From the NCBI GenBank assembly GCA_013334925.1, contig JAAXWP010000023.1, forward strand, positions 1-40,671: 40,671 bases of DNA, in the 5' to 3' direction. Each line of letters opens with the position of its first letter. Position 1 is the first letter of the stretch. The translations under genes and the position numbers were made by a program. Shown here in pieces: positions 8,147 to 26,748 of the stretch. The notes beneath the pieces are model-generated. The model worked only from the letters and a program-made list of their open reading frames with translations, did no database searches and was not told the origin of the DNA. The DNA is from Chlorobiaceae bacterium (GTDB lineage: Bacteria > Bacteroidota > Chlorobiia > Chlorobiales > Chlorobiaceae).

Positions 8147-9724
8147 ATGGCGAATCCAGGACATCTGGCGATCCTCAATAATGGGAGGGATGTTTGGAAT
8201 AAGTGGCGGGAAGAGAACGCTGCTGTTGAACCGGATTTAATCAAAGCCAATTTTGAGGGGGCCAAACTTTATGGATTTAATTTGAAGTGCGCCAATCTGA
8301 ATGGATCCAATTTGAAGGGCGCCAAGCTGTATGGATCCAATCTTGAGGGATCCAATCTGAGGGGAACCCATCTGGAGGGCGCCAAGCTGTATGGATCTAA
8401 TTTGAAGGGATCAAATCTGGAGGGCGCCAAGCTGTATGGATCCAATCTTGAGGGATCCAACCTGATGAAATCCAACCTGATGGGGGCCAAGCTGTGTGAA
8501 GCCAATCTGAAGGAGGCTCATCTGCATGGATCAAATCTGGATGGAGCCAATTTGGAGAGTGCTAATCTGGAAGGAGCCAATCTTGAGGGAGCCAATCTGT
8601 ATAGAGCTATTCTTTTGGGATCTAACATGAATGGGGCCTATCTAAATGGATCCAATCTGGAGGGAGCCAATTTGAATGGAGCTCATCTAAATGGATCCAA
8701 TCTGAAGGAAGCCAATCTGAAGGAAGCCAATCTGAAGGAAGCCAATCTGAAGGAAGCTCATCTGCATGGAGCCAATCTGGAGGGATCCAATCTGGAAGGA
8801 GCCAATCTGGAGAGAGCTTATCTTGATAGATCCAATCTGAAAAAAGCCGATCTGAAGCATACAGATATTTCAATAGCATCCTTAATTGACGCTAATCTTG
8901 ATGGTGCAAATCTCACCGGAGCAAAGCTATGGGAAGCAACTCGTTCTGGATGGTCAATCAAGGACGTTATATGTGAGTACGTCTATTTCGATCGTGAGGG
9001 TAAGCATAAGACAGAATTCGCTCCTGGCGAATTTGAACGCTTGTATTCTGAGAAGGCGAGGATTGTTTTGCAGTATAAGGACGGATTAACAAGATTTGAG
9101 TTAGCTACGCTTCCTATGCTGATTCAATTTGTAGAACGTAATCATCCTGGGTGTCGCCTGCGATGGAAATCATTCCAGGAGGATGCTGGAGGAGAAAGTG
9201 CAACAATAGTAATTGAGGATTTAGGTAATTGTGAGGAGGAAAAGTTGAGGGCCGAGGTTGAGGGCTTGAAAAACCAAATTCGTGAAAAAGAGGAGAGGTT
9301 ATTAGCGGCGCGATCTGAGTACGAAGGGCTTCAAAAATTTATGTTTAATGCAATGAAGGAGTTCTCTATGCTCAATGTTAATATCGAGGGTGATAACTAT
9401 GGCCCGATTGGGAAGAAATCGAAAGTAGAACGTCAGATAATTAACAACCACGATCCGGCGGCCATATCCAACCTGATTAACGAAATCCTAGCTATTCGGA
9501 CGGATATTGTTCAGGTGCTTTCTCCTGAACAATCAGTTGATTTTGATGCTGCCATTAAGGATCTTCAGGCTCAGGTGGTTTCTCCTCAGAAGGATCAGGA
9601 CAGCTTTAAAAAAGGTTTAACAAAACTTGGAGGCTTTGTGTTAAAGGCTATGGAGCATGGTGCTAATCTTAGTACGATCGCCACTGCATTTCAGGCCTTT
9701 GGCATTCATCTACCATTTGGCTGA
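8147..9724 (+). CDS. Pentapeptide-repeat protein with coiled-coil C-terminus
   Basis: A 525-residue protein. After a 35-residue N-terminal cap (LNNGRDVWNKWREEN), residues 36-260 form about 45 unbroken A/S-N-L-x-x pentapeptides, predicted to fold as a long square beta-helix. A globular segment follows, then a coiled coil near 365-400 (LRAEVEGLKNQIREKEERLL), a GDNYGPIG motif and a helical tail with an amphipathic LGGFVLKAME segment. Pentapeptide rods can mimic DNA or act as scaffolds; the tail could couple binding to an effector step. Function unknown. It is the last gene of the cargo block. Confidence 0.9.
   Translation: MANPGHLAILNNGRDVWNKWREENAAVEPDLIKANFEGAKLYGFNLKCANLNGSNLKGAKLYGSNLEGSNLRGTHLEGAKLYGSNLKGSNLEGAKLYGSNLEGSNLMKSNLMGAKLCEANLKEAHLHGSNLDGANLESANLEGANLEGANLYRAILLGSNMNGAYLNGSNLEGANLNGAHLNGSNLKEANLKEANLKEANLKEAHLHGANLEGSNLEGANLERAYLDRSNLKKADLKHTDISIASLIDANLDGANLTGAKLWEATRSGWSIKDVICEYVYFDREGKHKTEFAPGEFERLYSEKARIVLQYKDGLTRFELATLPMLIQFVERNHPGCRLRWKSFQEDAGGESATIVIEDLGNCEEEKLRAEVEGLKNQIREKEERLLAARSEYEGLQKFMFNAMKEFSMLNVNIEGDNYGPIGKKSKVERQIINNHDPAAISNLINEILAIRTDIVQVLSPEQSVDFDAAIKDLQAQVVSPQKDQDSFKKGLTKLGGFVLKAMEHGANLSTIATAFQAFGIHLPFG
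8252..8926 (+). repeat. Tandem 15-bp repeat array inside the pentapeptide gene
   Basis: About 45 tandem 15-bp units encode the pentapeptides. Some are identical at DNA level: the unit CTGAAGGAAGCCAAT occurs three times in a row at 8702-8746, with a fourth, slightly changed, at 8747-8761. A higher-order block built on GGCGCCAAGCTGTATGGATC recurs near 8319, 8379 and 8424. This suggests recent expansion by slippage or unequal recombination. Confidence 0.9.
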
Positions 9725-11899: not shown

Positions 11900-11908
11900 T
11901 AATTTTTT

Positions 11909-11963
11909 TTGGACTAAGAGTTAAAAAATCTTGGACAAAATTAAAGATATTTGGATATTGGAC
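11909..11963. promoter_or_regulatory. TTGGAC repeats, candidate repressor operators
   Basis: TTGGAC occurs at 11909-11914, 11931-11936 and 11958-11963, with TTGGAT at 11951-11956, all on the plus strand inside the gap between repressor and first early gene. The spacing of 20-22 bp puts copies about two helical turns apart. They could be operator half-sites or overlap -35 elements of the early promoter. Assignment rests on position and recurrence only. Confidence 0.5.
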
Positions 11964-12004
11964 TTGATGACGAAAATCACTCTAACAATATACGTACGAA
12001 TACC

Positions 12005-12256
12005 ATGCCAGCAATTCCTTATGACAAGCCCCCGAAATGGGAACACGGTACGGCCAAAGAGGTTACGAAGATTTTGCAGGACAAAGGGCAGACAATCTCC
12101 TACGATGCAGTCTGCAAGCGTCTCGCCCGGCTTTCTGATTATGAGACTGTAAAGATCGCTATGCAGGTAAGTAAGCGTCGCCGGGAGGCTCGAAGGATCA
12201 GGAACGAGAACATGCGGCGGCTTCTCAAACTCGCAAAGCAGGAGGCCCAGTCATGA
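12005..12256 (+). CDS. First early gene, Cro-position small DNA-binding-like protein
   Basis: An 83-residue basic protein (MPAIPYDKPPKWEHG). It has a possible helix-turn-helix (TAKEVTKILQDKGQTISYDAVCKRLARL) and a very basic helical tail. It is the first gene right of the repressor, the usual Cro/CII position, but I do not recognise the family. The frame is open from a TTG at 11951, but that would overlap the TTGGAC repeats, so the ATG at 12005 is preferred. Its stop overlaps the next start (ATGA). Confidence 0.75.
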   Translation: MPAIPYDKPPKWEHGTAKEVTKILQDKGQTISYDAVCKRLARLSDYETVKIAMQVSKRRREARRIRNENMRRLLKLAKQEAQS

Positions 12257-12486
12257 ACGAGCAGCAAGTAGCACAACCGTCATTTAGGTTCTACCGAATC
12301 AGTGAAGTCCTCGGAGATAAAAAGCGGGGCATTCCCGGCATAATCCCGGTCTCACGAGCATCATGGTATGCCGGTATCAAGGATGGAAAGTACCCGAAGC
12401 CGGTCAAGCTTTCAGAACGTACCTCGGCCTGGAAATCCACGGATATCGATGAGCTTGTGGCGCGTCTTTTGGCAGAAAGGAAGTAA
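12253..12486 (+). CDS. AlpA-like excisionase / HTH regulator
   Basis: A 77-residue protein with the AlpA signature: a start like FYRISEVLG, then VSRASWYAGIKDGKYPKPVKLSERTSAWKSTDIDELVARL. The wHTH fold binds DNA as a transcriptional regulator or recombination directionality factor. It overlaps the previous gene by 4 bp. No other excisionase candidate exists, so it may be the Xis partner of the ssrA integrase. Confidence 0.85.
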   Translation: MNEQQVAQPSFRFYRISEVLGDKKRGIPGIIPVSRASWYAGIKDGKYPKPVKLSERTSAWKSTDIDELVARLLAERK

Positions 12487-12513
12487 GGATTCAACAAAAC
12501 CAAGGAGAGAGGG

Positions 12514-12657
12514 ATGCCAAAGATACTGAGGCAAATCGGGGGGATCATTCGCTGTGCATTGCCATACACGACGCATTACGAGTTCGTGAACTGCTTTGCC
12601 GTGCGCAAGGGAACAGATCCAATCATGTGGACTCATCAACAGGAAGGTGACGCATGA
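12514..12657 (+). CDS. Small early protein, 47 residues
   Basis: Reads MPKILRQIGGIIRCALPYTT to an end in THQQEGDA. A good Shine-Dalgarno (AAGGAGAGAGG) lies just before the ATG, and the stop overlaps the next ATG (ATGA), which argues for real translation. No family recognised. Contains two cysteines. Confidence 0.6.
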   Translation: MPKILRQIGGIIRCALPYTTHYEFVNCFAVRKGTDPIMWTHQQEGDA

Positions 12658-12770
12658 ATGAATTCTTCAACTATGCCTGGGGCGGGCTGATCTGTGCTGC
12701 AGGTCTCTACCTGTGCTGGGAGATGTTTCGGTACAACCCATTAAAGGAGGTTCCAGATGACAACGCGTGA
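12654..12770 (+). CDS. Small membrane protein, 38 residues
   Basis: Reads MNEFFNYAWGGLICAAGLYL and continues CWEMFRYNP; one likely transmembrane helix at about 7-25. Its start overlaps the previous stop by 4 bp and its end overlaps the next gene by 14 bp, so it is translationally coupled on both sides. Function unknown. Confidence 0.6.
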   Translation: MNEFFNYAWGGLICAAGLYLCWEMFRYNPLKEVPDDNA

Positions 12771-12990
12771 AACGTTCGGCATTCTGGCCGTGATCTTCGG
12801 ATTCAGCGCGGTCTATGAGGTGGCAATCAATGGCGCGGATATGAAGGTACTGGCGGTGATAGCAATACTGGCGGTTATGGTGCTGCTGGTGATCGTCCTG
12901 GCAAAACTGCTGACCTGGTATCAGAAACAGGCAGAAAAGCAAAAAGCCGGTTCCTGGCGGCAACCAACGAACCGGCATTGCATTTACTAA
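12757..12990 (+). CDS. Small membrane protein, 77 residues
   Basis: Two hydrophobic segments, about 7-25 (GILAVIFGFSAVYEVAI) and 30-53 (VLAVIAILAVMVLLVIVL), followed by a basic tail with KQAEKQKAG. A strong Shine-Dalgarno (AAAGGAGG) lies seven bases before the ATG. The third of a coupled run of tiny early genes. The last codons lie in an inverted repeat that looks like a terminator on the opposite strand. Function unknown; envelope-level exclusion or signalling is possible but unsupported. Confidence 0.65.
   Translation: MTTRETFGILAVIFGFSAVYEVAINGADMKVLAVIAILAVMVLLVIVLAKLLTWYQKQAEKQKAGSWRQPTNRHCIY
12934..12976 (-). terminator. Minus-strand terminator candidate inside the early operon
   Basis: GCCGGTTC (12946-12953) pairs perfectly with GAACCGGC (12969-12976). 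On the minus strand the stem is followed by TTTTTGCTTTT; on the plus strand there is no T-run. It could stop antisense transcripts running toward the repressor. Confidence 0.45.
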
Positions 12991-13040
12991 AAACTTACAA
13001 AATAGGCCTTTGGTAGTCAAGGCAAAGTAACCAGAAAGGC

Positions 13041-13391
13041 GTGATTCAGGTGCAAATGAAAGGTAGAACACCAACCCGAGCAGAGCAGGACTTCATGACA
13101 CGGGTAGCCTCGATCGGATGCATCGCCTGCCTGTTCGAAGGCCGGATCATGCCAGAGGTATCGATTCACCATATCGATGGGCGAACGAAATCAGGCGCAC
13201 ACTATGAGGTATTACCGCTCTGTGCCGGGCATCATCAGGATGGCACGGGTATCCCTGGACTGGTTGCTGTTCACCCCTGGAAGGCGAGGTTTGAGGCGCG
13301 ATATGGAACACAAGCGGAGTTGCTCCAGGCAGTGAAGTACCTGGTCGAGTACGCTGAAGAACTGAAATCAGGCAGGAGGAAAAGCGCGTGA
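13041..13391 (+). CDS. Ref-like (RecA-dependent) HNH nuclease
   Basis: A 116-residue protein like the phage P1 Ref C-terminal nuclease family. It has CIAC (27-30), IHHIDGRTKSGAHYEVLPLCAGHH (42-65) and VAVHPWKARFEARYG. Ref enzymes cut DNA displaced by RecA filaments and help recombination. The frame starts at GTG 13041; ATG 13056 has an AGGTG seven bases upstream and is an equally good start. It overlaps the next gene by 4 bp. Probably part of early replication and recombination. Confidence 0.85.
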   Translation: MIQVQMKGRTPTRAEQDFMTRVASIGCIACLFEGRIMPEVSIHHIDGRTKSGAHYEVLPLCAGHHQDGTGIPGLVAVHPWKARFEARYGTQAELLQAVKYLVEYAEELKSGRRKSA

Positions 13392-13624
13392 ACAGGATAT
13401 GGACCCCAGAGTATGCAGCCGAGTTCGATGTGACGGATCCCGAAGTACGGGAATTCATCGAAACCCGATACCTGCCATACTACCGGGCAGAGATTGCAGA
13501 GCTTTTCAGGAAAGTGGCTGAAGGCGACCAGGAAGCGGTCGAAAAGGCCAAACGGTATGAAACTGCACTCGAGACGGCGCGAACCCGGCTGATCGGCGAG
13601 AAGCAGATTGACATGTTTTTGTAA
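13388..13624 (+). CDS. Early hypothetical protein, 78 residues
   Basis: A GTG start overlapping the previous stop (GTGA). Acidic helical protein (TPEYAAEFDVTDPEVREF; ending GEKQIDMFL). The QxxxxF/L-type end (KQIDMFL) is similar to sliding-clamp-binding peptides, a weak hint only. Unknown function within the replication block. Confidence 0.65.
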   Translation: MNRIWTPEYAAEFDVTDPEVREFIETRYLPYYRAEIAELFRKVAEGDQEAVEKAKRYETALETARTRLIGEKQIDMFL

Positions 13625-13642
13625 AACCAGATAACACAGACG

Positions 13643-13948
13643 ATGAGCTTGTATCACGAAGAGATCCACGAGTATGGAGTGATCCATCAGATCATGGAGG
13701 CCGCAACGACAGCGGCAGAGTTTTCAGCGGCAGCAACGGACTATGCCGCTCAACGCATGCAGGGCGAACCAGCGGACCCGGCAACCCTGTTGGCCAAACA
13801 GGGCGCGTTTGAGATCAGCATGAAGAAGATGGAGATCATCTTCTACGATCGCCAAGGCCAGAAAGGGCAGATGAAACAGGCGATGCTGAAGAAGAGCCGG
13901 GAACGGTTCGAACGGCGCAAGGCGAGACGGCAGGGGGACGCGGCATGA
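13643..13948 (+). CDS. Early hypothetical protein, 101 residues
   Basis: A helical protein with an alanine-rich N-terminal half (TTAAEFSAAATDYAAQRM) and a very basic C-terminus (RERFERRKARRQG). The leader AAAACCAGATAACACAGACG has no Shine-Dalgarno. Overlaps the next gene by 4 bp. Not recognised. Confidence 0.65.
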   Translation: MSLYHEEIHEYGVIHQIMEAATTAAEFSAAATDYAAQRMQGEPADPATLLAKQGAFEISMKKMEIIFYDRQGQKGQMKQAMLKKSRERFERRKARRQGDAA

Positions 13949-14454
13949 TGCAAGCAGATCGACGGGCGATAACTCGAAGCGCCAGGGGGCGAATCAACCG
14001 GGCGGATGGCGAACGAGCCCAGCATATCACGATGGAGCTGATGAAAGACCTGGGGTACCGGTGTGTCGAGAAGATCGAGACCGGCATGACCCTGAATCGG
14101 CAAGGCGGTGAAATAGTTGGCGCGTTTCCATCGGCGAAGGTCTCCGGCGACATCCGGGCGATCGGCCCGAAAGGGGTCACGGTGCATTGCGAGTGCAAGT
14201 ATCGTCCCGAGAAAGAGGACGGGCGGCTGGTGCTGCAGTGGAGTGACTTCGAGACGCACCAGATCGAGCATCTTGAGGCGGTCACCGAGGCCGGAGGATT
14301 GGCTTTCGTGTCCTGGGTGACCTCCTTATACCCGGCGCGGCTTTTCTGGCTGCTATGGCCGATTCCTATGCGTAAAGGGCGAGCACTGACGGCGGCAGAG
14401 GCGGCGCACATAAGGATGGAACATTTCGGTTTTCATAATCCCAACACAAAGTAA
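13945..14454 (+). CDS. PD-(D/E)xK nuclease, RecU/resolvase-like
   Basis: A 169-residue nuclease. The active site reads SGDIRAIG (Asp69) then ECKYR (Glu83, Lys85), the canonical D-x(n)-E-x-K arrangement, followed by WSDFETHQIEHLEAVTEAGG as in RecU-like Holliday junction resolvases. Full length for phage members. It lies between early hypotheticals and the replication protein. Junction resolution before packaging is the likely job. Alternative: a VRR-type nuclease. Confidence 0.75.
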   Translation: MMQADRRAITRSARGRINRADGERAQHITMELMKDLGYRCVEKIETGMTLNRQGGEIVGAFPSAKVSGDIRAIGPKGVTVHCECKYRPEKEDGRLVLQWSDFETHQIEHLEAVTEAGGLAFVSWVTSLYPARLFWLLWPIPMRKGRALTAAEAAHIRMEHFGFHNPNTK

Positions 14455-14456
14455 CC

Positions 14457-15647
14457 ATGGCAAACGCAGCATACTGGTTCAAGCACGACAGCAATGCCAA
14501 GGATGACTACAAGTGCATGCTGTTGATCGATCAGCTCGGACTGGAAGGGTATGGGATCTACTGGGTGCTGATTGAGACCCTGAGGGAGCAGGAAGGGTAT
14601 CGGTACCCGATGGCGATGTTGCCGATCCTGGCCAAACGATATGGCACCAGTGGTGAGAAGATGCGGGCGGTAGTGGCCTCTTACGGCTTATTCGAGGTCT
14701 TCGAGGATGACTCCTTTTCGAGCCCATCCCTGCTACGCCGGATGAACGAGTTCGAAGAGCTGGTTCAGCGGAAGAAAGAGCTTTGCTCGACGGCGGGCAA
14801 GCGGAGTGCGGAATCAAGAGCATTGCGCAAGATTGGCCGGGACCGGCAATTACCAGCCGGCATACCGACATCGAACGGCGGTTCACCAGATGAGGAACCG
14901 GCGTTGAACGGGAGTTCCCGAGCCGATGAACAAACGCTGAACGAGAGTGCAACCGATGCTGAACTGACGCTCAGCGATGGATCAACCGATGATAAACCGG
15001 AGTTGAACGGCAGTTCAACGAACGTTCAACACCAGTTCAACGGACGTTCAACAGGAGATGAAGAGAATTTGAACGGGAGTTCAACGGCGGTTGAACAAGC
15101 GATGAACGAGCCTTCAACAGATGTTCAACGGAATTCAACGGATAGGATAGGATTAGATAGGATAGGAAATGAAAGGACAAGACAGGACAAGAGGGGAGTA
15201 CGAGGGGAGAGTGTCGGTCGGTCGGGCAAGGAGGTCTACGATACGGTTGGAAAGCATTCGATCCCGTACTCGACGATCCAGACCTTCCTGAACCAGGGGT
15301 ACACGCAAGCGGAGATCGACGACGTGATCGACGGCTTGAGGATCTACCAGGGGCTGGGCGAGATCAAGAGCATCGGCCCCTTTATGGCCTCCTGGTTACG
15401 CAAACGGCGCGAGAACCCGAGGCCTGCACCTGGTACCCGAGTGGACGGGATCCCCTGCCGGTTGTACACCGTCCAGGAGGTCGACAAGCTCCAGCTCTGG
15501 AAAGAGGCATCGATCGTGCGGATCGAGGGACGAAGTGCCTGCCGGAGTGCAGACGGCAAAGTGTTCCTGGCCCTGAACACGGATATCGACCGGCATGGAC
15601 TGACGAGACGAGAACCCAAACCGGTGGGCACAGACTGGCCGGACTGA
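14457..15647 (+). CDS. Replication protein with Lin1244/Lin1753-like (DUF4373) N-terminus
   Basis: A 396-residue protein. Residues 1-85 (AAYWFKHDSNAKDDYKC, LGLEGYGIYWVLIETLREQ) match the DUF4373/Lin1244-type N-terminal domain found in phage replication initiators. Residues about 140-240 are low-complexity, Ser/Thr/Asn-rich, with recurring NGSST. At DNA level this part carries phased TTCAAC iterons, as lambda O carries ori inside its gene. Residues about 250-320 (IPYSTIQTFLNQGYTQAEIDDVIDGL, IGPFMASWLRK) form a second helical domain. Likely origin-binding initiator; there is no helicase or loader gene beside it. The leader AACACAAAGTAACC lacks a Shine-Dalgarno. Confidence 0.8.
   Translation: MANAAYWFKHDSNAKDDYKCMLLIDQLGLEGYGIYWVLIETLREQEGYRYPMAMLPILAKRYGTSGEKMRAVVASYGLFEVFEDDSFSSPSLLRRMNEFEELVQRKKELCSTAGKRSAESRALRKIGRDRQLPAGIPTSNGGSPDEEPALNGSSRADEQTLNESATDAELTLSDGSTDDKPELNGSSTNVQHQFNGRSTGDEENLNGSSTAVEQAMNEPSTDVQRNSTDRIGLDRIGNERTRQDKRGVRGESVGRSGKEVYDTVGKHSIPYSTIQTFLNQGYTQAEIDDVIDGLRIYQGLGEIKSIGPFMASWLRKRRENPRPAPGTRVDGIPCRLYTVQEVDKLQLWKEASIVRIEGRSACRSADGKVFLALNTDIDRHGLTRREPKPVGTDWPD
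14903..15139 (+). repeat. Helically phased TTCAAC iterons, candidate replication origin
   Basis: TTCAAC starts at 15014, 15025, 15036, 15047, 15080, 15113, 15124 and 15134: steps of 11, 11, 11, 33, 33, 11 and 10 bp, about one DNA turn or a multiple. The inverse GTTGAA occurs at 14903, 15002 and 15090. Two 22-bp units at 15011-15032 and 15033-15054 are 20/22 identical. Since 11 is not a multiple of 3, the copies fall in different reading frames, so selection is on DNA, not protein. A purine-rich GATAGG repeat tract follows at 15140-15210 and may help strand opening. Confidence 0.65.
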
Positions 15648-15709
15648 CCGAAAGAACCTGAAGCCGACAACGAGAACCGAGACGAACCAATTGAGAAACG
15701 AGACGAACC

Positions 15710-15952
15710 ATGGCCGACGAAGTAACGGGCACGAAGCCTGACCTGGTGCACCTGGACAAACTGAGCCCCGAGGAACTGAAGCGGGAGATCTACCGGCTTC
15801 GCAAGGAGCGAACGAACCTGCGCAAACAGGTCGAGACGAAGGAATCGATCATCGACTACCTGCGAACGGCACAAGAGGACCGGATGGCGATGAAGGTGGC
15901 CGAAGCGGTCGAACGAGTGCTTCCGAACCGAGGCATCAGGAGATTGGGATGA
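15710..15952 (+). CDS. Small coiled-coil protein
   Basis: 80 residues, with a heptad-like helix at about 20-55 (EELKREIYRLRKERTNLRKQVETKE). No catalytic motif. The leader is A/C/G-rich and lacks a Shine-Dalgarno. Its end overlaps the HNH start by 4 bp. Unknown; may act with the downstream HNH or terminase. Confidence 0.65.
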   Translation: MADEVTGTKPDLVHLDKLSPEELKREIYRLRKERTNLRKQVETKESIIDYLRTAQEDRMAMKVAEAVERVLPNRGIRRLG

Positions 15953-16350
15953 TCCGCAAACCTTGCCGACACCCAGGCTGCCACAGCCTGACCGACCGAA
16001 CCGATGGGTATTGCCTGGAGCATGCCCGGCAACATCGGAACGAGTACGCGAGGGAGTACCGGAAGGAGACCGGCCCGAGGGTGTACGACACCCAGCGGTG
16101 GCGGAAACTGTCGAAACAGATCCTGGCGCTGCATCCCTTCTGCCCGAGATGCGAAGCGATGGGCAAGGTATCGCTTTCGACCCTGGTGCACCACAAGGAC
16201 CGGGACCGGAACAACTGGTCGAGTGAGAACCTGGAGGCGCTCTGCAAGCCCTGTCACGAGTTCGAACATCGTCACGAGGTGTTCCGTCGTCAGCCGAAGC
16301 AGGGGGCCGGGGGGGCCTGTGAAATTTCGAGTGAGCTCAAGCGGCAATAG
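15949..16350 (+). CDS. HNH endonuclease adjacent to terminase
   Basis: A 133-residue HNH nuclease. Cysteine pairs CPRC (65-68) and CKPC (99-102) frame a zinc ribbon. The HNH core is VHHKDRDRNN (His81, His82), SENLEALC (Asn94) and CHEFEH (His103). HK97-type phages often carry such a nuclease next to TerS, where it is needed for terminase cutting at cos. AGGAG lies before the ATG. The C-terminus is low-complexity because it runs into the G-rich cos candidate. Confidence 0.92.
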   Translation: MIRKPCRHPGCHSLTDRTDGYCLEHARQHRNEYAREYRKETGPRVYDTQRWRKLSKQILALHPFCPRCEAMGKVSLSTLVHHKDRDRNNWSSENLEALCKPCHEFEHRHEVFRRQPKQGAGGACEISSELKRQ

Positions 16351-16398
16351 ACTGATGGGGACACATTTTTTCCATGTCAAAATTCGCACAGGGGGGGT
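16303..16398. other. Candidate cos region
   Basis: A G-run flanks each side of the HNH-TerS gap: GGGGGCCGGGGGGGCC at 16302-16317 and GGGGGGG at 16391-16397. Near each lies half of an inverted pair, CCTGTGAAATTT (16316-16327) and AAATTCGCACAGG (16380-16392). cos sites of HNH/P27-type phages usually lie here. The cut site cannot be fixed by eye. Confidence 0.35.
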
Positions 16399-16920
16399 AT
16401 GAGGGGGAGAAAGCCGCAACCGACCAATCTGCACATCATCAAAGGCACCTATCGAGCGGACCGGCATAGTCAAACAGCAGAAGCACTTAGCAGCTCTGAC
16501 GATAGCCTGTTGACGCCGCCGTCCTGGCTGAAAGCAGATGCCAAAAAAGAGTGGAAATTGGAGGCAAAAATGGCCATAAAAGCGGGGATTTTGACCCATT
16601 CTGACCGCTCCGCCTTTGCGGATCTGTGCATTTTGCAGGCGCGAGTAAAACAGGCCTACAAGGACATGCACACCTTCGCCGAATCGATCAAAAAGAAGGC
16701 GGCGGCACGTGGCGGTACCTGGGAATACGACACGATCCTTCCCCCGAACCAGAGCGGGTACTTCGCCCAGAACCCCTTCATCCCGATCTACAACAAGGCG
16801 CTGAAAGACCTGAACCAGCTCCGGGCGGAGTTCGGCATGACTCCAAGCAGCCGAACCCGGATCAAGATCGACAAACCGGCTGAGGACAACCCCTTCGCGG
16901 CACTCTCGGCCATGCAGTAA
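16399..16920 (+). CDS. terS: Terminase small subunit, P27 family
   Basis: 173 residues starting MRGRKPQPTNLHIIKGTYR, the typical P27 opening, then PPSWLKADAKKEWKLEA and LCILQARVKQAY, and the C-terminal segment LRAEFGMTPSSRTRIK common to the family. It recognises phage DNA and presents it to TerL. The ATG follows a G-run that may act as ribosome site. The gene is separated from TerL by the ParB-like and glycosyltransferase genes, which is not the usual order. Confidence 0.93.
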   Translation: MRGRKPQPTNLHIIKGTYRADRHSQTAEALSSSDDSLLTPPSWLKADAKKEWKLEAKMAIKAGILTHSDRSAFADLCILQARVKQAYKDMHTFAESIKKKAAARGGTWEYDTILPPNQSGYFAQNPFIPIYNKALKDLNQLRAEFGMTPSSRTRIKIDKPAEDNPFAALSAMQ

Positions 16921-16938
16921 CCAACAAACCAACCATTT

Positions 16939-17589
16939 ATGAAACTGTCTGACATCAACCCCAACCCGGACAATCCACGGGTGATCAAGGACGCAAAATT
17001 CCGCAAGCTGGTGAACTCAATCCGTGAGTTCCCGAAGATGCTGGAACTGCGACCGATGGTCCTGGACACCACGAACACGCTCATCGGCGGAAACATGCGA
17101 TTCAGGGCTCTCCAGCACCTGGGTTATACCGAAATACCGGACACCTGGGTCAAACGTGCAGAGGACCTTTCAGAGGACGAGAAGAAGCGGTTTATCGTGG
17201 CCGACAACATCCAGCTCGGAGACTGGGACTGGGACGTGCTGTCGAACCTGTGGAACGAGGACGATCTGATCGACTGGGGGCTCACCATCGAAGCCGCTCA
17301 AAAAGAAGCGGATCCGGAAGTTGCCGAGGAACAGCGGACGGTGGAGGACATGGAACTGAAGTTCAACGAACATCACGACTACATCGTGTTCCTGTTCAAC
17401 AACGTCAACGACTACGTGATGGCGGTCACGAACCTGGGCCTCAAAAAGGTGAAAGCTACACTCTCCGAGAAAGCCAAAAAGGTGGGGCTCGGCCGGGTGG
17501 TCGATGGCACCCGCCTGATCGAACTTATGCAACAGATCCAGAACCAGAAGTACCATGCAGCCGAAGAAAGTCATCCTGTCGAGGGGTAG
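16939..17589 (+). CDS. ParB/sulfiredoxin-fold protein
   Basis: 216 residues. The N-terminal ParB-like domain begins LSDINPNPDNPR and has LRPMVLDTTNTLIGGNMRFRAL (38-58), the nucleotide-binding GG-N-x-R box. Then comes FIVADNIQLGDWDWDVL, seen in phage ParB-like proteins. The C-terminal part (EHHDYIVFLFNN to the end) is a separate helical/beta domain. Phage ParB-like proteins bind or hydrolyse nucleotides and are often linked to DNA modification. It overlaps the glycosyltransferase gene by 35 bp and lies between TerS and TerL. The leader CAACAAACCAACC lacks a Shine-Dalgarno. Confidence 0.85.
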   Translation: MKLSDINPNPDNPRVIKDAKFRKLVNSIREFPKMLELRPMVLDTTNTLIGGNMRFRALQHLGYTEIPDTWVKRAEDLSEDEKKRFIVADNIQLGDWDWDVLSNLWNEDDLIDWGLTIEAAQKEADPEVAEEQRTVEDMELKFNEHHDYIVFLFNNVNDYVMAVTNLGLKKVKATLSEKAKKVGLGRVVDGTRLIELMQQIQNQKYHAAEESHPVEG

Positions 17590-18289
17590 ATCCCAGCACA
17601 TCACCACACACCATATCCTTCAGGACTTTGAACTGGTGGTGCCCGAGTCCGAGATTCCGGACTACCAGACGATCGTGAAGAACGCGAACGAGATCATCGG
17701 GATCCCCGATGCGGTGGTCGGGCTGGGGTCGGTGCGGAACTGGATTCTGGATCATTATGCGGACGAGGTGGTCGTTATGTTTGACGACGACATCAAGTAC
17801 TGCGTCTCGGTCCTGAACTTCTCACCGGTCAGGATGGAACACCCGGATGAGATCGAGGGGATCATCTACAACTGCGCCCTGAACGCCTATGAGGCCGGGG
17901 CCAGGTGCTTCAGCTTCTCTCAGACCTGCGACGTCCGGAAGTACTCCCACTCCCAGCCGTTCCTGCTCAACTCCTGGGTGGGGTCGGTCGTCGGGGTGAT
18001 TGGCCGTGAACTCCGGTTCACCGAGAAGAACAAGCTCAAGGTGGATATCGATTTCACCCTGCAGAACCTGAAGAAGCACCGGATCGTCTGGGTGGATGCC
18101 CGGTTCGGGTTCGTGCCAACCAGGGACACCAACGTCGGGGGCAACTCAGCATTCCGATCCCAGGAGCAGCTCGAAGTTGAGATCCAGTTCCTGAAAGACA
18201 AGTGGGGCAAACACATCAAGGTCTCGAACAACAAGTCGAAGTACCGGACGACCATCAACGTCAAACGCACCCAGCAGTTGACGGTATGA
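17555..18289 (+). CDS. TET-associated-type glycosyltransferase (GT-A fold)
   Basis: 244 residues. It shows ILSRGR (7-12), VVPESEIPDY (28-37), GLGSVRNWIL (57-65), the metal-binding FDDDI (76-80), SWVGSVVGVIG (140-150) and DIDFTLQ (164-170). This pattern matches the TET-associated glycosyltransferase family described for phage DNA hypermodification. The enzyme would move a sugar from a nucleotide donor to a modified base. No TET/JBP oxygenase or thymidylate-synthase homologue is in the window, so its acceptor is unclear. It overlaps the ParB-like gene and TerL, so the three are co-translated. Function inferred from family. Confidence 0.75.
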   Translation: MQPKKVILSRGRSQHITTHHILQDFELVVPESEIPDYQTIVKNANEIIGIPDAVVGLGSVRNWILDHYADEVVVMFDDDIKYCVSVLNFSPVRMEHPDEIEGIIYNCALNAYEAGARCFSFSQTCDVRKYSHSQPFLLNSWVGSVVGVIGRELRFTEKNKLKVDIDFTLQNLKKHRIVWVDARFGFVPTRDTNVGGNSAFRSQEQLEVEIQFLKDKWGKHIKVSNNKSKYRTTINVKRTQQLTV

Positions 18290-19980
18290 TGCATTCCCAC
18301 ATCGCGGCGATCTACGGCTACATCGACGACGTGCTGGACGGGCGGATTCCGGCCTGTGAGCACATCAAGAACGCCGCCCGAAGGCACCTGAAGGACCTTG
18401 AGGCCTCCGAGGATCCCGAGTACCCCTACGAGTTCAGGGAAGAGCTGGTGATCAAGTTCATTGCCTTCTGCGAACTCCACCACCACGTGAAAGGCAAGTG
18501 GCGCGGCCAGCGGATCAAGCTCGAACCCTGGCAGAAGTTCTCGTTCGGGATCCCGTTCGGCTGGGTGCGGAAATCGGACGGCCTGCGCCGGTACCGGGAG
18601 ATCTTCGCCCTGATTGCGAGGAAGAACGCCAAATCGACGATGGCGGCCCTGGTCGGCCTCTACATGGGGGCTGAAGACAGCTCCGGCGCTCCTGAGGTTT
18701 ACTCGGGGGCGACCTCCGAGAAACAGGCGCGAGAAGTGTTCGATCCGGCCTGGAGGATGGCGAACACAAACCGGGCCTTCAAGGCGCATTACCGGGTCAA
18801 CCTGACCGGGACCGAGACGAACCCTACGGGGATCTTCTTCACCGGCAACGGCGGGAAGTTCGTGCCGGTCATCGGCAACCCTGGTGACGGCGCAAGCCCC
18901 TCCTGTTCGATCACCGACGAGTACCATGAGCACCCGACCTCTTCGCAGTACGACACCATGGTGACCGGAATGGGAGCCAGGGAACAGCCTCTTCGGCTGG
19001 TGATCAGCACCGCTGGCACGAACATCTCATATCCCTGCTTCGAGAAGCAACAGGACTGTATCAAGATCCTGCAGGGGGTAATGAAGAACGATGAAGTATG
19101 GGCCGTCATCTACACGATCGATCCGGATGACGACTGGCGCGATTTCGGTTGCTGGGCGAAAGCGAACCCGAACATGGGGGTATCGGTGTTCGAAGATTTC
19201 CTTCTTGCCCGGTACGAAGAGGCGATGACCAAGGCGGAACGCCAGAACATCATCCGATGCAAGCATCTGAACGAATGGCAGAACAGCGGTCAGGCCTTCA
19301 TCAACATCGTGGAGTGGGCGAAAGGAGCGGATCCGACACTCAGGCTCGAGGACTTCGAGGGTGAGGAGTGCGCCCTGGGACTGGATCTTGCCTCCAAGAT
19401 CGACATTGCAGCCTATGCCAAGCTCTTCAGACGCGAGAACACCTATTACGCCTTCCTGAGATACTACCTGCCGGAGATGACGGTCCAGAAGGCCGAAAAC
19501 ATGCATTACCAGCAATGGGAGAAGGAGGGGCGATTGGTCGTAACACCTGGTGCGCGTACCGACTTCGAGTACATCGAAGAGGACATCAAGGAGGACGCGA
19601 AGCGATTCAGTGTCCGAGGTCTCGGGTACGACCCTTACGAGTCGGGTTACCTGATCAACAACCTGGCGAAGTGGGAGGGCAACCGGATCGAGTGTATCGA
19701 AGTGCCCCAGACGGCCACGCACATCAGCGAACCGATGAAGGATTTCGAGGCCCTCGTTTATGACGGCAAGTTCAAGTTCGATGGAGATCCGATTCTCACC
19801 TGGATGATATCGAACGTCATCCAGAAGCAGGCGAGGAACAAAAAGTACTACCCGAGCAGGGAAAACGTCAAGAACAAGATCGACGGGTTCATGGCGACCC
19901 TGATGGCGCTCCTGGTGTGGGGGTCGGAGACTGAAGAGGGGCCTTCGGTGTATGAGGGCAGAGGAATTATGTTATTATAA
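18286..19980 (+). CDS. terL: Terminase large subunit (Terminase_1)
   Basis: The packaging motor and headful/cos nuclease, 564 residues. Walker A-like ARKNAKST is at 111-118, Walker B SCSITDEYHEH with Asp211-Glu212, and coupling motif VISTAGT at 239-245. The nuclease domain begins ALGLDLASKID (Asp367) and continues with GYDPYES and KNKIDGFMATLMAL. The frame is open to 18202, but ATGATG at 18286 overlaps the previous stop and gives the normal TerL N-terminus, so I start there. TerS lies 1.4 kb upstream with two inserted genes between. Confidence 0.95.
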   Translation: MMHSHIAAIYGYIDDVLDGRIPACEHIKNAARRHLKDLEASEDPEYPYEFREELVIKFIAFCELHHHVKGKWRGQRIKLEPWQKFSFGIPFGWVRKSDGLRRYREIFALIARKNAKSTMAALVGLYMGAEDSSGAPEVYSGATSEKQAREVFDPAWRMANTNRAFKAHYRVNLTGTETNPTGIFFTGNGGKFVPVIGNPGDGASPSCSITDEYHEHPTSSQYDTMVTGMGAREQPLRLVISTAGTNISYPCFEKQQDCIKILQGVMKNDEVWAVIYTIDPDDDWRDFGCWAKANPNMGVSVFEDFLLARYEEAMTKAERQNIIRCKHLNEWQNSGQAFINIVEWAKGADPTLRLEDFEGEECALGLDLASKIDIAAYAKLFRRENTYYAFLRYYLPEMTVQKAENMHYQQWEKEGRLVVTPGARTDFEYIEEDIKEDAKRFSVRGLGYDPYESGYLINNLAKWEGNRIECIEVPQTATHISEPMKDFEALVYDGKFKFDGDPILTWMISNVIQKQARNKKYYPSRENVKNKIDGFMATLMALLVWGSETEEGPSVYEGRGIMLL

Positions 19981-20006
19981 CATAGTAATTTAGCTCAATT
20001 TTCTGT

Positions 20007-20035
20007 TTGGAATCAAAATACTTAAAAGTTACTTT
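20007..20035 (+). promoter_or_regulatory. Possible promoter after TerL
   Basis: In a short A+T-rich gap (19981-20050), TTGGAA (20007-20012) and TACTTT (20030-20035) are 17 bp apart, a sigma70-like layout. It would start the RadC block. Match quality is modest. Confidence 0.3.
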
Positions 20036-20079
20036 ATTTATGAAGCGACAAGGAAACCAAAACCCAAACAGAAACGATC

Positions 20080-20454
20080 ATGGCACAGGCGAACAACACA
20101 GAGAAACTGAACGCAAAGACTCCTGAACAAGTGATGGAGTTCCGGTTGATGATGGCAACCTATCAGGAAGCCTCTGCTCGTCAGTCGATCAAGGATCATT
20201 TGAAGGACATGAAGGCAGTGTTTGAGCGGGGTGCTCTTGAGATGCAGCGCTACCTGGACCAGATCGAAGGTGTTGAAGCCGGAACCAACGGGGTTCAGGG
20301 ACCGACGATCGAGGATCTGTATTCCTGGGCACTGAATGAAGTTGAGAACCGGGTTCGCAACCTGAACACCTCGAACGCCGTGGGGAACTCAACCCGGTAT
20401 GTGAGTGCAAAAGAGCAGTTGAAGCTCATACAGGAAATCCAGGCTGCCAAGTAA
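20080..20454 (+). CDS. Hypothetical helical protein between TerL and RadC
   Basis: 124 residues, predicted all-helical (TPEQVMEFRLMMATYQEASA, IEDLYSWALNEVENRV). The leader AAACCAAAACCCAAACAGAA is C/A-rich with no Shine-Dalgarno. No family recognised. It starts a four-gene block before portal. Confidence 0.65.
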   Translation: MAQANNTEKLNAKTPEQVMEFRLMMATYQEASARQSIKDHLKDMKAVFERGALEMQRYLDQIEGVEAGTNGVQGPTIEDLYSWALNEVENRVRNLNTSNAVGNSTRYVSAKEQLKLIQEIQAAK

Positions 20455-20467
20455 ACCGGACAAGAAC

Positions 20468-20962
20468 ATGACCAAAGGAATGTGCGTTTTTCGGCAATAC
20501 AGCCTCAGGCTGGTGAAGGAGAAAGCAGGGGAGTACGACGCCCCGAAGAAGATCACGGGGGCACAAGATATCAACCGGGTGTGCCGGGAAGTTCTCGAAT
20601 TGCACGAGCAGCCCGAGGAGAAACTGGTGTGCTTCGACCTGAACACGAAGAACGTGGTGATTGCGATTCGGGTGGTGTCGGTGGGCACGATCAATGCCTC
20701 CCTGGTGCATCCGAGGGAGGTGTTCAAGGGAGCGCTCTTATCGAACGCCCACAGCATCATCATTGCGCATAACCATCCATCAGGGGAGACGAAGCCGAGC
20801 GTACCTGACGACCAGGTCACCAAGATCCTGCAAGCGGCAGGGGATCTCCTACAGGTCAAGCTGCTCGATCACGTGATCGTCGGTGAAGAGGATTACTACA
20901 GCTACCGGGAGGCCGGCAAGCTCGATGAACCAACAACAACCAAAACCAGCAAAAGGAGATAA
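20468..20962 (+). CDS. radC: RadC-like JAB-domain protein
   Basis: 164 residues of the RadC/MPN+ (JAB) metalloprotease-like fold. Glu51 (EEKLVCFDL) and the zinc motif HNHPSG (101-106) with Asp114 are intact. The N-terminal HhH part of chromosomal RadC is absent, as in phage and plasmid versions. Such genes often travel with anti-restriction and DNA-processing genes; the exact reaction is not established. In one run with the next two genes. Confidence 0.92.
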   Translation: MTKGMCVFRQYSLRLVKEKAGEYDAPKKITGAQDINRVCREVLELHEQPEEKLVCFDLNTKNVVIAIRVVSVGTINASLVHPREVFKGALLSNAHSIIIAHNHPSGETKPSVPDDQVTKILQAAGDLLQVKLLDHVIVGEEDYYSYREAGKLDEPTTTKTSKRR

Positions 20963-20967
20963 GACAG

Positions 20968-21513
20968 ATGCAGTATTTGACGAAACGGGGCTATGCGCTC
21001 CTCGATGTGGCCAGCGCCTTACAGAAATCGATCAGGAGAGGGGACGCAAAACTCGCCGGGTACATAGCGCAAGAGCTCGTGGCATCGGGATATGTGGAGT
21101 ACGTCTGGAAGCGCCTTCTGACTATCTCAGCCGAAGACTGCCATGGCATCATCACCCAGGAGATCAAGGCCCTGCATGAGAGCTTTGTCTTGGTCAACAA
21201 GGGGAAAAAGGAGCTGAAAGGGAGGATCTTCGTCTCGAAGGCGGTGCTGATCCTGGCCCATGCCCTGAAGTCGAGGGACGCAGATCACTTGCAGTGCCTG
21301 ATGTACGACCAGAAGCTCGGCATCACGGATGAGGAGATCGAAGCCGAGATCCGTGGACTGGACCGGTTGGAGAAGGTCGAGCTACCAGAGTACACCTATG
21401 ACGTGCACACGAGAAATGGGCGGATAGCCGGGAAAACCAAGGAGATGTTCTTCAGAGAGGAGCAACAGGGATTGTCACCCAAGGCCCCTGGTCTGTTCGA
21501 CAACCTGCTCTAA
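20968..21513 (+). CDS. RarA/MgsA C-terminal-like protein
   Basis: 181 residues. The start (ASALQKSIRRGDAKLAGYIA, ELVASGYVEYVWKRLLTISAED) resembles the C-terminal tetramerisation domain of RarA/MgsA (ALQKSIR-GSD ... YIxRRLxxxASED), but with no ATPase domain. Free-standing versions occur on mobile elements. It may bind the host RarA, SSB or other fork proteins. AAAGGAG lies upstream. The second half (RLEKVELPEYTYDVHTRNGR) is conserved-looking but unknown. Confidence 0.65.
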   Translation: MQYLTKRGYALLDVASALQKSIRRGDAKLAGYIAQELVASGYVEYVWKRLLTISAEDCHGIITQEIKALHESFVLVNKGKKELKGRIFVSKAVLILAHALKSRDADHLQCLMYDQKLGITDEEIEAEIRGLDRLEKVELPEYTYDVHTRNGRIAGKTKEMFFREEQQGLSPKAPGLFDNLL

Positions 21514-21516
21514 CCG

Positions 21517-21543
21517 CCCTGCAATCGCAGGGTTTTTTGTTTT
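21517..21543 (+). terminator. Rho-independent terminator after the RadC block
   Basis: CCCTGC (21517-21522) pairs with GCAGGG (21527-21532) around AATC, followed by TTTTTTGTTTT. It ends the RadC transcript before the LPD29-like gene. Confidence 0.8.
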
Positions 21544-21572
21544 GTCAACGTTCAATCATCAAGGAGTGAATC

Positions 21573-22349
21573 ATGAGTGTCGCGATATCTGGCCCCTACC
21601 GTATCGGAGCAAGCGGAAATCTTGAAAAATGCGAGAAGGTCGAGCTTCAGGAAGGGCAAATCATCTGGCTGAATGGCTATGGCCAAAGCGAGCACTGGCA
21701 TGAGCGGAAAGTCGTGTTCAAGCGTGAAGAGACCCGTTACGGGGCGATCTATCATGCGGTGAACATCGATGTTGATCCGCCAGTGATCAGCCGGTATGAA
21801 GCGTTCACGATCCGTCCGGTTGACCAGATCTTCGGCATCGGGACTTATTACACGCCGGGGGAGATGTTCGAGGGAAGCCATCAGGAGCTGGACCAGATGA
21901 TTTTCAAGGCATTGGAGCATCAGCGGCAGGAGGCCGAACGGCGAAATGCGGAAGCTGATCGGCTGAAAGCGCTTGAAGAGGCAGGAAAAAAGGTTTGGGC
22001 AAAGATGGAGGTCGCTGGCGCGAAATCGCTGATTGTGGCTGAACTGAAGGAAGACCGTTCGGACCTGATGACGGACTACTTCCACAGCGTGACGGTGAAA
22101 ACCGTTATCCTGGGTACCTCAAAGACCAATCGGAACAACTTCAAGGAGTTGCGGAAACTGGCGGCGCAGTCGAGCATTCCGGAGATCCAGGTATTGGCGA
22201 CAGCGGTGCCTGAGCACGAGCATCGGGAGAACTACTCGGGTGGTGCCGGGTACTACCTTGGCGAGAGTAACTATTCCGGATGGATTATCCGGAAGGTGCC
22301 TCCGTATAGGGAGTATTTGCAGGAGCTGGGCAAGGAAGAACTTAACTGA
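21573..22349 (+). CDS. LPD29-like polyvalent-protein domain protein
   Basis: 258 residues. The C-terminal half (LIVAELKEDRSDLMTDYFHS, then VTVKTVILGTSK and ELRKLAAQ) resembles large-polyvalent-protein-associated domain 29, commonly found on plasmids and phages near anti-restriction genes. The N-terminal half (about 1-110) is a separate beta-rich domain, and a short charged helix (EHQRQEAERRNAEADRLK) joins the two. AAGGAG precedes the ATG. It is a lone gene between two terminators. Role unknown; counter-defence is plausible. Confidence 0.6.
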   Translation: MSVAISGPYRIGASGNLEKCEKVELQEGQIIWLNGYGQSEHWHERKVVFKREETRYGAIYHAVNIDVDPPVISRYEAFTIRPVDQIFGIGTYYTPGEMFEGSHQELDQMIFKALEHQRQEAERRNAEADRLKALEEAGKKVWAKMEVAGAKSLIVAELKEDRSDLMTDYFHSVTVKTVILGTSKTNRNNFKELRKLAAQSSIPEIQVLATAVPEHEHRENYSGGAGYYLGESNYSGWIIRKVPPYREYLQELGKEELN

Positions 22350-26656: not shown

Positions 26657-26729
26657 ACCGGGATGGAGCAGTTGGCAGCTCGTCTGGCTCATAACCAGAA
26701 GGTCGAGGGTTCGAGTCCTTCTCCCGGCA
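26657..26729 (+). tRNA. tRNA-Met (CAT)
   Basis: A full cloverleaf: acceptor ACCGGGA/TCCCGGC, D-arm GAGC/GCTC (26666-26681), anticodon arm TCTGG-CTCATAA-CCAGA (26683-26699), variable AGGTC, T-arm GAGGG-TTCGAGT-CCTTC (26705-26721), discriminator A26729; CCA not encoded. Position 1-72 is an A-C mismatch, unusual for an elongator; the anticodon stem lacks the initiator's three G-C pairs. A CAT anticodon could also be a lysidine-modified tRNA-Ile. Its 5' end overlaps the palindrome CCCGGTATACCGGG (26649-26662). It lies inside the late operon. Confidence 0.85.
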
Positions 26730-26748
26730 CAAAGTAGAAAAGGATAAG

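Follow-up and report, generated by a model that had tools for sequence, protein, structure and literature searches.

Origins located within initiator genes

Replication origins embedded in the genes of their own initiators are already known. In phage lambda, iterons lie inside the initiator gene O and a purine-rich stretch follows them. In the RepA_N plasmid pSK41, the boxes recognized by the N-terminal winged helix of the initiator sit in the middle of rep, and the protein linker can be dispensed with (PMC5703833). For the Lactococcus phages, the introduction of PMC8965321 states that TP901-1 ORF13 and Tuc2009 ORF16 each bind a repeat-rich stretch of their own gene that serves as the origin, and lists r1t ORF11 as homologous. 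The Tuc2009 record annotates orf16 (Rep2009) as "contains origin of replication". The prophage array described here, found in a window of 40,671 nucleotides (the whole stretch of DNA that was analyzed), is very probably a further case, unusually long and regular.

In Lactococcus phage Tuc2009 orf16, 11-bp CAACCA-type iterons are followed by GGATAGGATAGG..., and in Lactococcus phage r1t orf11, TGGAACCGAAA iterons are followed by GATAAGAATAGATTAG.... Both genes resemble the prophage initiator gene in having repeats at an 11-bp pitch between their N- and C-terminal parts, with a 5-bp-periodic purine tract (GGATA/GATAA type) directly after the iterons. They differ from it in their cores (CAACCA and GGAACC), in having about 4 sites instead of 25, and in an N-terminal part without a PF14297 match. 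One protein family, phrog_20981, matches both the N-domain of the prophage initiator and residues 50-235 of r1t orf11; the Pfam domains of the two differ. TP901-1 orf13 is likewise an organizer that binds repeats within its own gene as origin, according to the same introduction, but it has a 15-bp pitch, no lag-11 signal and an HTH_36 N-terminus.

The sequence-only reading had likened the locus to lambda O/ori. The general idea of an origin within the initiator gene is supported, but lambda is not the closest model, given that its iterons are 18 bp long, are set at steps of 20-24 bp and give no lag-11 signal. The RepA_N plasmids (pSK41, pTZ2162) also carry repeats in the middle of the initiator gene, in their case four semi-palindromic boxes of another kind. 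The organizer gene of Streptococcus phage Abc2 (L215:5515-6246) has the same iteron-then-purine plan with other periods: in-gene short palindromes (GGACATTTGTCC) precede a purine tract of 6-bp period (AGAGAT), and the 11-bp pitch is absent. A118 orf49 has 8/16-bp repeats and no 11-bp array.

The initiator and its gene neighborhood

The gene that carries the candidate embedded origin is located at 14457-15647 on the + strand and encodes a 396-aa replication initiator of the Lin1244_N family. The protein matches the Lin1244_N profile (PF14297) with E=1.8e-13 and 51.5 bits, against a cut-off of 25, and matches phrog_2562, "replication initiation protein", with E=1.1e-12. Lin1244_N was the sole Pfam family on this protein at E<=0.01; Phage_rep_O, the lambda O family, and RepA_N (PF06970) were both absent at that threshold.

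The Lin1244_N domain (aa 7-89, 14475-14723, + strand) corresponds to a predicted winged helix in an AlphaFold2 model (pLDDT 90, pTM 0.78), with helices at aa 52-61 and 66-75 and a wing at about aa 79-88. The domain may be the part of the initiator that binds the iterons. The C-terminal region (about aa 250-396, 15204-15647, + strand) could recruit replication proteins; its last 48-64 residues show 50-59% identity to proteins encoded in other genomes from the host's genus and family. A search of PDB sequences with the initiator returned nothing significant. A fold search of the PDB for a RepA- or DnaD-like N-terminal domain fold returned generic winged-helix matches only (best Z 6.7); no RepA_N or DnaD chain was among the matches listed, a result that excludes nothing, and no clear structural relative of known function was found in the PDB. 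In a viral structure library, the initiator matched other Lin1244-type proteins and, weakly, phage replisome organizers.

Genes upstream of the initiator include those for a RecU-like resolvase and a Ref-like RecA-dependent nuclease (PF16786), the latter in the early region at 13041-13391. Downstream are genes for HNH and terminase proteins, among others. No helicase-loader gene (DnaC-like or lambda P-like) was recognized among the ORFs scanned near the initiator (11900-22000), unlike in relatives such as EF62phi, where such a gene is located directly downstream of the initiator. Two adjoining genes lie between the terminase genes, one for a ParB-like/methyltransferase-like protein (16939-17589) and one for a protein matching the beta-glucosyl-HMC-alpha-glucosyltransferase family (phrog_842; 17555-18289). 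The phage region also contains a RadC-like DNA repair family match (phrog_10276; 20468-20962), and a tRNA-Met that ARAGORN places within the late region (26657-26730) may be spurious. To the left of the phage genes, a gene at 8147-9724 encodes a 525-aa pentapeptide-repeat-like protein and contains 15-bp and 30/60-bp tandem repeats; here the period is divisible by 3, which is what a repeat at the protein level would show.

An array of palindromic heptamers at one-turn pitch

Eight copies of TTCAAC are found on the + strand, at 15014, 15025, 15036, 15047, 15080, 15113, 15124 and 15134, with steps of 11, 11, 11, 33, 33, 11 and 10 bp, exactly as the sequence-only reading had described them. When the motif is written as GTTSAAC, three more copies on the - strand (14903, 15002 and 15090) also fit this grid. 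The repeat unit is this palindromic heptamer (GTT-S-AAC), which reads alike on both strands except at its center, and TTCAAC therefore matches on both strands. Either variant of the central S is found, all on one grid.

Scored at a minimum of five matches in seven, the grid comprises 24 slots at a strict 11-bp pitch, with centers from 14873 to 15126. The first of these are 14873, 14884, 14895, 14906 and 14917, the last degenerate or weak, and the series continues from 14928 to 15126. A 25th site is centered at 15136, one 10-bp step past the final slot, and the whole array occupies 14870-15139 inside the initiator gene. The extent first proposed, 14903-15210, captured a real array, but the array begins about 30 bp further upstream and is larger than was claimed. 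The best-preserved block (15002-15052) consists of five consecutive perfect heptamers centered at 15005, 15016, 15027, 15038 and 15049, and a second well-preserved block (15068-15139) has centers at 15071, 15082, 15093, 15104, 15115, 15126 and 15136, the last step being 10 bp. Information per column is 0.7-1.75 bits in the heptamer core and mostly 0.14-0.33 bits in the spacer, with one flank column at 0.96.

The array codes for a linker with an 11-aa period. Because 11 is not a multiple of 3, the heptamers fall in all three reading frames in turn along the grid, as had been noted for the TTCAAC copies, and the linker protein shows only an 11-residue superperiod. Protein selection does not explain either the 11-bp period or the 5-bp period of the tract described below, since neither is a multiple of 3.

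The earlier claim that the protein cannot explain the phasing was borne out by codon-preserving shuffling, the check proposed along with it: shuffled sequences never reached the observed phasing. Requiring at least six matches in seven, the best register holds 18 GTTSAAC sites, against a maximum of 15 and a mean of 8.2 in 5,000 synonymous-codon shuffles that kept the protein, and against a maximum of 3 when codon order was shuffled. The lag-11 self-match score is 41; in 1,000 shuffles that preserved the protein it never exceeded 31. In the 2.73-Mb genome, the tandem pair GTTSAAC-N4-GTTSAAC occurs in five places, all within this array, and the reversed control pattern does not occur; a search with the tandem-pair pattern thus found no second heptamer array elsewhere in the genome.

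A purine tract adjoining the array

Directly after the array, on the + strand, is a purine-rich tract of 5-bp repeats (GGATAGGATAGGATTAGATAGGATAGG...) at 15140-15199. The segment 15140-15210 is 83% purine with 46% GC, and the lag-5 score of the tract is 26 against a shuffle maximum of 9. The most purine-rich 60-bp stretch within 11.9-40.6 kb begins at 15149, in agreement with the GATAGG tract first reported next to the array. The tract is a candidate site for strand opening or single-strand loading. One DnaA box match (TTATNCACA) was found, far from the array, at 1282. GC skew is positive throughout the window, with no turn at 15 kb, and is uninformative on the origin.

Conservation of the layout among relatives

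A close relative (L001) is 97% identical to the initiator and keeps the array. The two genes differ at 12 of 264 positions in the array, at 6 of 411 before it and at 7 of 513 after it. The linker protein is therefore loosely constrained, whereas none of the differences within the array alters a perfect core. In a more diverged relative (L002), with 64% identity in the best segment, the linker is different and much shorter, but it carries the same heptamer six times at the 11-bp pitch, and a purine tract comes after these sites.

We surveyed 136 dereplicated relatives from viral contigs, species genomes and phages. Exact 6-mer repeats in these genes peak at lags of 11, 22, 33 and 44 and at lags of 5, 10, 15 and 20. 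With purine stretches masked, lags 11, 22, 33 and 44 are found in 67, 53, 48 and 18 of the 136 genes, compared with codon-shuffle means of 2.4, 5.0, 7.0 and 2.4 genes, and lags that do not belong to the 11-bp series reach 19 genes at most. Lag-11 repeats are present in 78% of 114 linkers versus 11% of 342 flank pieces from the same contigs; for lag-5 repeats the corresponding figures are 54% and 8%. Depending on the measure, about half to three quarters of the relatives have a clear lag-11 signal.

The 5-bp tract of the relatives has a median purine content of 86% on the coding strand. Its median distance from the end of the array is 1 bp, and the array precedes it in 67 of the 74 genes that have both. 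Iteron cores vary: 25 representatives have GTTSAAC-type cores, 37 have GCAWTGC-type cores and others have, for example, AATCGCCACCC. Many relatives have 4-6 sites, compared with 24-25 here, and arrays of 11-bp pitch built on other cores are found in several r1t-like genes among L200-L213. Across the family, core sequences differ, but the 11-bp pitch and the adjoining 5-bp purine tract persist.

A function of the array at the level of DNA, which the sequence-only reading had judged likely, is strongly supported by the sequence comparisons, namely by the frame-rotating period, the protein-preserving shuffles, the array of the same heptamer in the diverged L002 and the family-wide 11-bp peak.

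The class of iteron tracks the identity of the N-domain, the observed value being reached in 2 of 500 permutations, compared with 46 of 500 for C-domain homology. The closer association with the N-domain modestly favors this domain as the binder. The protein columns that vary with the class of iteron lie at scattered positions (aa 76, 105, 102, 35 and others) and are not concentrated in the predicted recognition helix, and they therefore give no support either way regarding that helix.

In one genome of the host family (L012:336-1647), the initiator is a different one, DnaD-like (phrog_2514), and its array consists of CCAACGATCAA units at an 11-bp pitch. A separate ORF follows this initiator, and its end is 58% identical to the C-terminus of the protein encoded at 14457-15647. 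Here the same module is divided between two genes.

The candidate origin, its proposed mechanism and alternative functions

The segment 14870-15199, which lies where the initiator gene of the prophage codes for the linker, is very probably the replication origin of this prophage. The repeats in this gene go beyond what the protein explains in the protein-preserving shuffles, and a candidate opening tract, the purine-rich 5-bp repeats at 15140-15199, adjoins them. Support also comes from the relatives, since the purine tract adjoins the array in most of them, from the matches of the protein to initiator families, and from the identical layout of r1t and of Tuc2009, whose gene is reported to carry the origin.

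In the mechanism we propose, the N-terminal winged helix of the encoded initiator would bind one heptamer per helical turn. The one-turn pitch would place all bound protomers on one face of the DNA, forming a continuous nucleoprotein array. This array could strain the duplex and open or capture the neighboring purine/pyrimidine tract, after which the C-terminal domain may recruit the replicative helicase or the primase. As a protein segment, the linker is probably just a by-product of the DNA and tolerated as such.

It is possible, though improbable, that the initiator binds the array for copy control, incompatibility or autoregulation (as an operator or by handcuffing) and that replication starts elsewhere. 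Iteron arrays often regulate initiation too, and a number of sites far above that of many relatives could indicate titration. The direct junction of array and purine tract in most relatives argues against this function, as do the lack of another heptamer array in the genome and the in-gene repeats of Tuc2009 and TP901-1, which serve as origin according to the introduction of PMC8965321. Less probable still is a centromere-like or partition role, in which a partner protein instead of the initiator would bind the array, since the 11-bp array and 5-bp tract go with initiator genes in different phages. Plasmid partition sites, too, are known to have short direct repeats spaced by one turn, and a ParB-like gene is present at 16939-17589; however, its product fits a methyltransferase family (phrog_498) slightly better than the ParB-like one.

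A repeat that exists for the sake of a low-complexity protein linker, or one that arose as a minisatellite by slippage, would account for a repetitive linker protein of 11-residue period. This explanation is very hard to sustain: it is contradicted by phasing above every protein-preserving shuffle and by a palindrome that occurs with either center base on one grid, and slippage by one 11-bp unit would break the reading frame, yet 11 bp is dominant in unrelated sequences. We give least credence of all to an RNA-level element in the initiator mRNA, such as a translational control signal. The palindromic units could pair in RNA, but arms of 3 bp make poor hairpins, strict one-turn spacing has no obvious meaning in RNA, and the same layout occurs with unrelated cores.

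Implications for phage initiators

The literature searched contains no described origin for the Lin1244_N family; matches to DUF4373 concerned iron in Bacteroidetes, and Lin1244 gave none. A family-wide rule of 11-bp iterons plus a 5-bp tract is not described in that literature, which left out the primary r1t report, and priority is uncertain. The embedded-origin reading gives a large, poorly characterized family of phage proteins a concrete mechanism and narrows the probable origin of each member down to a few hundred bases. Together, 11 and 5, neither of them a codon period, offer a simple way to test sequences for embedded origins, and the swapping of cores opens the specificity of initiator for DNA to direct testing. 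The locus is also a clear case in which a DNA function shapes the coding sequence and the protein linker follows.

We lean towards the broader view that Lin1244_N and related DnaD-like initiators share a portable in-gene origin grammar, in which short, often palindromic cores at one-turn pitch, the cores swapping between clades and the pitch not, precede purine repeats of 5-bp period in the coding strand. If so, origin position and initiator specificity would be readable from sequence for many uncharacterized phages, the initiator would act as an array along one face of the DNA, passing a defined strand on to the replisome, and the layout would be a phage counterpart of DnaA boxes plus DnaA-trios.
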